IMG/VR virus record: IMGVR_UViG_3300028392_000049
Span: 24,680-88,679 of that record
DNA length: 64,000 bases
From: a virus
Reading direction: 5' to 3' (one strand)
Shown: piece after piece, positions 7,028 through 46,908 of the stretch
Numbering within the stretch: position 1 is the first letter of the stretch
How the letters are laid out: every line of letters starts with the position of its first letter
Position numbers and translations under genes: made by a program
The notes under the pieces: generated by a model
The model's database searches: none
What the model saw: only the letters and a program-made list of their open reading frames with translations
Told to the model about the DNA's origin: nothing

Positions 7028-7069
7028 ACTTATATTATACCTGCCCGTACTGACAAATATAGGGTAAAG

Positions 7070-7141
7070 CTCCCGCTAGTGGATTCGAACCAATAACCCC
7101 AGAGTTAACAGCTCTGTGCTCTGCCGTTGAGCTAAGCGGGA
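7070..7141 (-). tRNA. tRNA-Asn (GTT)
   Basis: A complete cloverleaf on the minus strand: acceptor TCCCGCT/AGCGGGA, D arm, anticodon stem CAGAG/CTCTG with loop CTGTTAA (anticodon GTT), and T arm with GGTTCGAATC. The 3' CCA is not encoded. It is the last member of a four-RNA cluster transcribed toward lower coordinates and lies 5 nt after the tmRNA-like RNA. Confidence 0.92.
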
Positions 7142-7146
7142 TTGAG

Positions 7147-7224
7147 TGGAGTAGCAGAGAATCGAACTCTGGTCCTAGTAATTTCCGCGTGCGGTTTTAA
7201 TACTAGTCGAAACCTTCCTACCCC
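7147..7224 (-). ncRNA. tagless mini-tmRNA (tRNA-like domain of ssrA without pseudoknots or tag frame)
   Basis: A 78-nt element read on the minus strand. The 5' end GGGGTAG + GAAGGTTTCGAC and the 3' part GGAC + CAGAG-TTCGATT-CTCTG + CTACTCC + A match the tRNA-like domain of tmRNA base for base in layout (the GGxTTCGAC D-arm analogue and the GGAC joint are tmRNA hallmarks). The acceptor keeps the G3-U70 wobble and A73 that direct alanylation. No anticodon arm exists. In place of pseudoknots and the tag frame there is one stem, CTAGTA/TACTAG, closing a 20-nt loop with a CCG/CGG mini-hairpin. It lies one base from tRNA-Tyr and five from tRNA-Asn, so it is probably processed from the same transcript. 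It could be a decayed tmRNA, or a decoy for alanyl-tRNA synthetase or SmpB. CCA is not encoded. Confidence 0.7.
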
Positions 7225-7225
7225 G

Positions 7226-7304
7226 TGCTGGACCTTGGAATCGAACCAAGCGTGCTTTCGCGACAGATTTACAGTCCGTTGCCCCACCTTGGGGCCTGCA
7301 CAGC
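7226..7304 (-). tRNA. tRNA-Tyr (GTA), class II
   Basis: The anticodon stem ACGGA/TCTGT carries loop CTGTAAA, anticodon GTA. The D stem is CCCC/GGGG, there is a variable arm around GCGAAAGC, and the T arm is CTTGG-TTCGATT-CCAAG. The acceptor pairs GCTGTGC with GTCCAGC, with one mismatch and one G-U pair, so the acceptor stem is slightly weak. Discriminator A, no encoded CCA. It is separated from the tmRNA-like RNA by a single base. Confidence 0.85.
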
Positions 7305-7309
7305 TTACG

Positions 7310-7382
7310 AGCCTCAAGCAGGAATCGAACCCGCGACATCAATATTACAAGTATTGCACTCTGCCAACTGAGTTATTGAGGC
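7310..7382 (-). tRNA. tRNA-Thr (TGT)
   Basis: Acceptor GCCTCAA/TTGAGGC, D arm with AGTTGGCAGAGT, anticodon stem CAATA/TATTG with loop CTTGTAA (anticodon TGT), T arm GCGGG-TTCGATT-CCTGC. First RNA of the cluster in the direction of transcription, seven bases after the HNH gene. Confidence 0.92.
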
Positions 7383-42330: not shown

Positions 42331-43401
42331 TTAGTTAGTTTCGGCGATTACGATAGCCTGATCGGTAATGAGGCCCAGTCCGAAGATTGAGTACCATGCA
42401 AGGGCATGCTCACGACCGAAGTCAAGGATACCACCATCACGCAATTCAACTGGCAATGAGATAGCGTGACCGAAAGCGTTGTCACCAATGAAGATGGCGC
42501 TGTAGCGGTCTGCTGAACCATTACCTGTGAAGGTGTTAGGTGTTGTGTAGCCTCCACCAGCAGAAACAACAGGAGTCGAAACAGCTGTATCTGCGGTGTA
42601 GCTTGTGCCTGCTCCACCTGGAACCTTGAGAACCTGTGTGGTTTCAATGAACACGGTGTCGTACAAGCGACCGATTTCACCAAGCATGAAGTTACCAGGT
42701 GCGGCGTACTTCGTTACTTCAATGAATTCAGGGTTGTCGCGGAGCTTGCGGCTCTGGTGCGGGTGAACGAAAGCAACGTATGTTTCGCCCAGACGTGGGA
42801 TATTCTTGGTAGCAAGTGTTTCAACAGCGTCCTTGACGGTTGCAGTTGTAAGACTGAAGTTACCAGTCATCGATGCACGGCTTGTGCCCTTTGTACCATA
42901 GTCGTACCAGTTGTTGACTGCTGACAAGCTTGAACGGTCGTAACCGTAGATTGCTGACGTAGCACCGTAAAGGGTGTCGCGTGAAATCTGGTCAAGGTAG
43001 ATAGCCATGTTGCGACCCAGAAGACGTGAAGCCGAAGCCATAACATCATCGAAAGAAGCATTGAGGAGAAGTTCTGAAACAGCAAGCGCGTAGCCGTGCT
43101 CCGAAACTGTGATGCTGAACTGCTGTGCAGTCAAAGCATTTGTGGTCATACGTACGCCTTCAACCAATGGCTGTGCAAAGCCAAGGTTGTTGTAACGCAT
43201 GAAGTTGATTTGCAAACCTGGTGCAACACCAAGTTCTGTCTTCTTTACAGCAAACTGCTCAAAGCGAAGAATCGGCATAGCCTGGAAAAGGATTTCCTTT
43301 GACCAGATCTGCTGAATCGCCTGAGTAAGCTGCGAGTTTGTGCCTGAGTAGGCGGTAGGTGACGCGGCGAGATTGCCTGTACCTGTTAATGCGCTAGCCA
43401 C
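42331..43401 (-). CDS. major capsid protein
   Basis: A 356-residue protein from a GTG with TAGGAG upstream. The pattern (QIWSKEILFQAMPILRFEQF, VAPGLQINFMRYNNL, LLLNASFDDVMASASRLLGR, then FVHPHQSRKLRDNPEFIEVT) matches the N4 gp56/HK97-fold major capsid families. It lies after the scaffold and portal genes in transcription order. HK97 fold assigned by similarity of layout, not by structure. Confidence 0.85.
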   Translation of the reverse strand: MASALTGTGNLAASPTAYSGTNSQLTQAIQQIWSKEILFQAMPILRFEQFAVKKTELGVAPGLQINFMRYNNLGFAQPLVEGVRMTTNALTAQQFSITVSEHGYALAVSELLLNASFDDVMASASRLLGRNMAIYLDQISRDTLYGATSAIYGYDRSSLSAVNNWYDYGTKGTSRASMTGNFSLTTATVKDAVETLATKNIPRLGETYVAFVHPHQSRKLRDNPEFIEVTKYAAPGNFMLGEIGRLYDTVFIETTQVLKVPGGAGTSYTADTAVSTPVVSAGGGYTTPNTFTGNGSADRYSAIFIGDNAFGHAISLPVELRDGGILDFGREHALAWYSIFGLGLITDQAIVIAETN

Positions 43402-46481: not shown

Positions 46482-46503
46482 AGGCGTCCCAGGTAGCGGG
46501 CTA

Positions 46504-46908
46504 TTAGTCCTGAACGACAGCAGGGCTTAGGCGGAACTGATGTCCACCATCGCGGAAGACCTCTTCAAAATGATTGTCGCCATGGTCAGCAAAAGCTTCC
46601 GAGGCAAACTCATTAAGAACAGTTGGTGCTTCCACCCAAGCAGCAGAACCAACGTGAGCACGCTCACGCATTGTTTCTTCAGGGAACTTTTCGAAGACGT
46701 TCTGGTTGTGGTTCGGACGGCCTGGTGCTGGGATGTATCCCTGCATAGCGCCCTTGGTGAACTCCATAGGAACATCGGTATCTGTTGCGATACCTTCTTC
46801 AAAACGTAGCGGACCACGTTGACCAGGCAGGGCTGGGCTCATGGTACGGTCGTATACAGTGCCTGGACGCTCTGGGAGCTGTGGCGCTGGTGCGATAATT
46901 TCTGACAT
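46504..46908 (-). CDS. conserved small virion-associated protein
   Basis: A 134-residue Pro/Glu/Phe-rich protein (TMSPALPGQRGPLRFEEG, IATDTDVPMEFTKGAMQGYI). No enzymatic motifs. It follows the terminase gene and a possible promoter gap (46909-46993). Possibly a head-associated or packaging accessory protein; function unknown. Confidence 0.55.
   Translation of the reverse strand: MSEIIAPAPQLPERPGTVYDRTMSPALPGQRGPLRFEEGIATDTDVPMEFTKGAMQGYIPAPGRPNHNQNVFEKFPEETMRERAHVGSAAWVEAPTVLNEFASEAFADHGDNHFEEVFRDGGHQFRLSPAVVQD

Follow-up and report, generated by a model that had tools for sequence, protein, structure and literature searches.

A detailed inspection of a 64,000-nt stretch of viral DNA (hereafter the window) revealed that its minus strand encodes, from position 7224 down to 7147, a 78-nt RNA whose identity as a tmRNA consisting of the tRNA-like domain only is secure. 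tmRNA is the RNA by which bacteria rescue stalled ribosomes. We use the term mini-tmRNA (or mini) for a tagless tmRNA that is reduced in this way to the tRNA-like domain. At least ~90 distinct relatives, nearly all of them on viral contigs, were identified by pattern scans and with a covariance model. With regard to function, we infer, with confidence that is about evenly divided, that the minis constitute a class found across viruses, namely tagless tmRNAs charged with alanine and bearing a loop hairpin of their own, which would act on stalled host ribosomes via host SmpB, either shutting down trans-translation or giving tag-free rescue, and which would be selected in phages of several bacterial groups.

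Read from 5′ to 3′, the mini is composed of GGGGUAG, GAA, GGUUUCGAC, a 6-bp stem with a 20-nt loop, GGAC, the T arm, CUACUCC and a final A, all on the minus strand, and thus extends from G1 to the discriminator A73. The seven nucleotides of the 5′ acceptor strand (GGGGUAG, 7218-7224, with G3 at 7222) all pair with those of the 3′ strand (CUACUCC, 7148-7154, with U70 at 7150), and G3-U70 is present in every relative read directly. Within the D-arm analogue GGUUUCGAC (7206-7214), GG and GA are invariant and the remaining positions nearly so in alignment A1. The P2 stem, formed by CUAGUA (7201-7206) and UACUAG (7175-7180), is a covarying helix, the GGAC joint (7172-7175) is invariant in alignment A1, and the 5-bp T arm (CAGAG-UUCGAUU-CUCUG, 7155-7171) shows two-sided changes at four of its five pair positions among the relatives. 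All of the landmarks of the tRNA-like domain of tmRNA listed in the original prediction could be read in the sequence. The features that characterise this domain are present: an acceptor of 7 bp carrying G3-U70 and A73, a reduced D-arm that contains GG and UUCGAC, the GGAC joint, and a 5-bp T arm with a TTC loop. Minimum-energy folding of the window sequence alone slightly favours an alternative to the T arm (-24.1 versus -20.7 kcal/mol), so the fold given here rests on comparative evidence.

The Rfam tmRNA model (RF00023) matches positions 7144-7224 from end to end, with ~300 model positions skipped, and yields 52.1 bits (gathering cut-off 47 bits; E 1.2e-17 over the window); model R1 gives 94.3 bits (E 3e-24). 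Between GAC and GGAC there is only a short stem-loop (~30 nt), with no messenger domain and no pseudoknots, in agreement with the proposal of a reduced tmRNA without a tag frame. The mini has GGUUUCGAC, G3-U70, GGAC and the T arm in common with bacterial tmRNA (RF00023), from which it differs in that this stem-loop closes the gap left by the messenger domain and pseudoknots. Three other assignments were rejected: (i) a full tmRNA, for which there is no conserved tag frame with a stop codon and there are no pseudoknots, (ii) a permuted (two-piece) tmRNA, since RF04321 (cut-off 47) scores it at only 20.3 bits and both acceptor strands lie inside one 78-nt unit, and (iii) an ordinary tRNA. In the last case, the D stem and anticodon arm expected of a tRNA were not found, the tmRNA model outscores the tRNA family of the same Rfam clan, and ARAGORN calls the three flanking tRNAs of the locus but not the mini, which would thus escape annotation by tRNA finders. 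A hidden tag frame was sought in the loop and none is conserved, a GCN-to-stop frame occurring in 35 of the 119 unique middles, with mixed lengths, among the matches listed.

The mini is the third gene of a minus-strand operon with the order tRNA-Thr (TGT; 7309-7382), 4 nt, tRNA-Tyr (GTA; 7225-7304), 0 nt, mini, 5 nt, tRNA-Asn (GTT; 7069-7141), and so indeed sits in a phage tRNA cluster. The Thr and Asn genes were detected by both ARAGORN and Rfam; tRNA-Tyr, called by ARAGORN, has a low score (RF00005, 31.9 bits) and an apparent mismatch in its acceptor stem. A search for promoters and terminators around the operon revealed nothing convincing, and comparison of the nucleotide sequence of the whole window with phage records gave no match. 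The DNA polymerase encoded in the window is nearest to those of exactly five mini-carrying Streptomyces phages (~39% identity), a similarity that makes the window distantly related to the BRock-like actinophages and shows the mini to have been kept across that distance.

Unannotated minis were found in seven Streptomyces phages: BRock, pSt2308, LuckySocke, Alone3, GiJojo, Tomas and Riptide. In the isolate Streptomyces phages the mini comes after tRNA-Val(tac) within the tRNA cluster. The copies in pSt2308 and BRock, found by nucleotide search, score 61.0 and 64.5 bits, respectively, with the Rfam tmRNA model, whose scores for the relatives span 42-81 bits; a match above the Rfam cut-off is present in 47 of 49 carrier records and a weaker one in the other two (G015 and G043). 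The loop pattern, comprising part of the loop and the T arm and leaving positions 3 and 70 both free, matched 31 viral contigs; in each of the 31, the T arm and all seven acceptor pairs are formed, a requirement that the pattern did not impose in full. The generic pattern, which is without the loop, fixes U70 but not G3 and does not require the 5′ acceptor strand. It gave at least 120 matches in viral contigs, and a full 7-bp acceptor is present in 112 of the 119 viral matches read (among the matches listed) and in only 11 of 79 matches from cellular genomes. Of 84 cellular-genome matches to this pattern, 11 are true minis (at least 49 bits); the remainder were rejected (at most 38 bits, mostly without the 5′ acceptor strand). 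With the covariance model built here, minis mostly score 45-98 bits, compared with at most 38 bits for full-length or permuted tmRNAs and tRNAs.

Several candidates proved not to be minis. SM1, DLP_6, QDWS359, SRUTV-1 and a human-gut clone were rejected as carriers, as they contain ordinary full-length or permuted tmRNAs (at most 35 bits with the mini model). Unannotated tmRNAs of this permuted or full-length kind were noted in Pseudomonas phage SM1 (L245:2474-2773), DLP_6 (L247:1484-1705), QDWS359 (L241:2487-2781, overlapped by the annotation of a "hypothetical protein") and SRUTV-1 (L239:2157-2532). Microbacterium phage Quenya, which gave a partial match, has no tmRNA up to the Rfam cut-off, and three "tmRNA" calls made by ARAGORN over minis were artefacts assembled from adjoining sequence. 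Locus L043, with a long GC-rich loop, is a marginal member of the family, as is the second match in L109. The smallest form observed, of 64 nt (L205:737-800, on an Anaerolineae MAG contig), has its P2 closed directly by a GCGA tetraloop. A 136-kb viral contig (G038, the contig of L093) carries two minis (42520-42602 and 109671-109753), ~67 kb apart. Other structured RNAs were also observed: inside a phage tRNA cluster, a ROOL RNA (L083:3239-3835, minus strand) lies 27 nt downstream of a mini (L083:3863-3941, minus strand), and a match to the pistol ribozyme (L192:1621-1716, 54.8 bits) is located near a mini on a Prochlorococcus single-cell contig, possibly of viral origin.

The same form is retained in the relatives, with G3-U70 and the T arm kept. 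Fourteen ungapped sequences of the actinophage type keep 96% of pair cells and show two-sided changes at 15 of 23 pairs, and no shuffle attains either value. In a 92-sequence alignment, 95% of base-pair cells are kept, two-sided cells number 580 versus 176 in shuffles, and the covariation score is 0.68 versus 0.15; sliding the partner by one column abolishes the signal. This alignment was model-fitted, and the ungapped set together with the raw pattern counts constitutes the cleaner evidence. Covariation over ~90 sequences involves the two strands of the acceptor as well as two other stems.

Within the acceptor, pairs 4-6 vary freely and take many forms, while pair 3 stays G-U. A 7-bp acceptor bearing G3-U70 and A73 was found in the window and in all 31 loop-pattern loci, for which neither position 3 nor position 70 had been fixed. 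With only U70 fixed, G3 is present in 113 of 113 cases and A3 never, among the matches listed, though an A-U would pair; the lone A-U at pair 3 in the fitted alignment (L157) is due to a 5′ strand placed out of register by the model. In tmRNA, alanine identity is conferred by a G-U at acceptor pair 3-70 (PMC3985003). Since pair 3 is invariant next to freely varying pairs, it is probable that evolution keeps the mini chargeable with alanine, and the original view that the window RNA could be charged with alanine is supported. This retention is the strongest hint at function that the sequences provide, and it suggests selection for something beyond passive titration of SmpB.

The predicted 6-bp stem with a 20-nt loop is present in the window, but the loop is not featureless: it holds a conserved hairpin, CCG-CACG-CGG (7185-7194), flanked by AAAA and AA. 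The hairpin is invariant in the actinophage set (loop sequence AARCCGCACGCGGAA), and its third pair covaries family-wide in the 92-sequence alignment. Outside the actinophages, the loop motif consists of an A-rich bulge, CC, a short loop, GG and A; among the matches listed, it occurs in 53-62% of the unique generic matches without the exact loop, versus 3-13% in shuffled loops.

In the carriers, the mini sits in tRNA clusters, just ahead of the gene for the capsid protein, or amid genes of replication. A tRNA lies at most 500 bp away in 28 of 92 copies (random positions, 13%) and on the same strand in 27 of these 28; as this holds for no more than roughly one copy in three, the mini often stands alone as a gene. 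Nine siphovirus contigs (L041, L057, L058, L076, L081, L087, L088, L096 and L108) carry it after the gene of the prohead protease and 66-271 nt ahead of the reading frame of the major capsid protein, and the capsid proteins of these contigs share only 43-88% identity. In another group of carriers it is found among probable replication genes. To judge by position, the same-strand tRNA neighbourhood and the pre-capsid site would both be fit for high expression.

No SmpB gene was found in the 49 carrier records or in the 88.7-kb virus record of the window itself (50 in total), and any SmpB partner must consequently be that of the host. The record of the window contains no second tmRNA. Three carriers possess both a mini and a full-length tmRNA: Riptide (L235:20001-20077 and L235:31565-31831, respectively), Tomas (L243:15001-15078 and L243:24118-24390) and a 124-kb viral contig (G025, the contig of L051). 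The minis of Riptide and Tomas have lost GGAC and UUCGAC and kept G3-U70 and the loop hairpin, which could reflect relaxation or specialisation. The mini of G025 (46486-46567) is canonical, with both motifs kept, and the accompanying tmRNA match is of 392 nt (77588-77979).

An RNA with these tmRNA features should take alanine and bind EF-Tu and SmpB; without a tag, trans-translation cannot finish. We rank first, as a proposal whose chances we regard as balanced, that the mini, in its charged form, competes with host tmRNA for stalled ribosomes and is dominant-negative for trans-translation. The predicted course of processing, charging, SmpB/EF-Tu binding and inhibition would be as follows: (i) the mini would be transcribed together with the neighbouring tRNAs and excised in tRNA fashion, (ii) host alanyl-tRNA synthetase would charge it with alanine, (iii) host SmpB and EF-Tu would bind the charged form, (iv) stalled ribosomes would receive it instead of host tmRNA, and (v) in the absence of a tag frame the nascent chain would gain one alanine at most and no degradation tag. 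As the net outcome, trans-translation of the host would be impaired in a dominant-negative manner in the course of infection. The basis for this proposal is the tmRNA-type structure, the selection in many viruses, the strict G3-U70 and the absence of a phage SmpB.

Published work lends it further support, as do the settings fit for high expression. A tRNA-like-domain-only RNA resembling that of mycobacteriophage DS6A strongly inhibited E. coli tmRNA, chargeable or not, perhaps by titration of SmpB (Mao 2009, as cited in PMC4131195 and PMC11915505), so the decoy role first suggested for the window RNA is plausible and has a published precedent. The same result counts against a charged competitor in one respect: because the inhibition needed no charging, simple titration leaves the strict G3-U70 unexplained. 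Moreover, the full-length tmRNAs that Riptide, Tomas and G025 themselves encode would also be hit by such an inhibitor.

The second-ranked explanation, possible but distinctly less probable, is that the charged mini, with SmpB, enters stalled ribosomes and takes over the nascent chain, and that the ribosome is recycled with no tag being added; ribosomes would stay free for the phage, whose own proteins would be spared degradation, in parallel to mitochondrial tmRNA. In mitochondria, tagless tmRNAs have been retained alongside SmpB, and a helping role on incomplete mRNAs has been suggested for them (PMC11915505). The strict retention of the alanine pair indicates that the charged form matters, and the conserved inner hairpin could play a part in one of the events on the ribosome. 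Against this, we know of no step by which the peptide would be freed if the RNA has no stop codon. In addition, the sole experiment on such an RNA, described second-hand in PMC4131195, showed inhibition.

That inhibition, independent of chargeability as reported there, would suit a mini that merely sequesters SmpB (or EF-Tu), charging being irrelevant. This third-ranked explanation is improbable, as selection for SmpB binding alone offers no obvious explanation for an invariant G3-U70 beside freely varying pairs 4-6. Still less probable is a role in RNA processing, in which the tRNA-like structure would direct RNase P and tRNA 3′ processing of a polycistronic transcript, e.g. just before the capsid gene. 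The same-strand position within operons and the location 66-271 nt ahead of the capsid frame in nine phages are in its favour, but neither G3-U70 nor the D-arm analogue is needed for processing, any tRNA would suffice, and the mini of the window already sits among tRNAs.

Two further explanations can practically be dismissed. A decayed full-length tmRNA, as the original prediction had also considered, or an integration-site (attP) copy of a tmRNA 3′ end would account for the missing messenger domain and for the Riptide and Tomas copies without GGAC and UUCGAC, but decay is contradicted by the strong purifying selection and the covariation of the acceptor strands and two more stems in ~90 relatives, the mini is kept beside capsid proteins as divergent as those described above, and an attP copy would not have a compensated 5′ strand. 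Equally implausible is a tRNA-Ala of aberrant form that lacks the anticodon arm: G3-U70 and A73 are also features of tRNA-Ala, but the tmRNA model scores higher, ARAGORN does not call the mini, and UUCGAC and GGAC are tmRNA motifs.

The original statement that no tagless version was known has to be corrected. Mycobacteriophage DS6A encodes a tmRNA described as "TLD only" (PMC4131195) and CDS-less (PMC11915505), and there are mitochondrial and plastid cases. The DS6A tmRNA is likewise a phage RNA that barely exceeds the tRNA-like domain and has no tag frame; it was reported as a single case, and its likeness to the mini of the window is one of published description, not of sequence. The definition of this kind of tagless phage tmRNA (little beyond the tRNA-like domain, no tag frame, phage setting) fits the window RNA. 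Jakobid and other mitochondrial tmRNAs are also without a tag frame, but they are organellar, usually have circularly permuted genes, form Rfam family RF02544 and have a nucleus-encoded SmpB (PMC11915505). The CDS-less tmRNAs of Mallomonadaceae plastids (~65 bp), similarly lacking a tag frame, are organellar as well. Full-length phage tmRNAs (Streptomyces BE1 phages, Bxz1) have the same tRNA-like domain and also occur in phage tRNA clusters, but, unlike the mini, they comprise 267-392 nt with a tag and pseudoknots. Literature searches for the phage form described here yielded no report beyond DS6A. Tagless tmRNA as a kind is thus already known, from DS6A and organelles, whereas the breadth of the family, the invariant alanine pair in a freely varying stem, the loop hairpin, and the capsid-side and tRNA-operon settings appear to be undescribed.

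Known so far from one phage, through a passing mention, this kind of RNA proves to be encoded by a viral gene that is widespread and strongly selected. Phages able to grow on laboratory Streptomyces contain it without annotation, and annotation pipelines based on ARAGORN miss it. The retention of G3-U70 poses a testable question, namely what need a phage has for a charged tmRNA that is unable to tag. The family suggests that phage counter-measures include ribosome rescue among their targets, and it could yield small RNA inhibitors of trans-translation.
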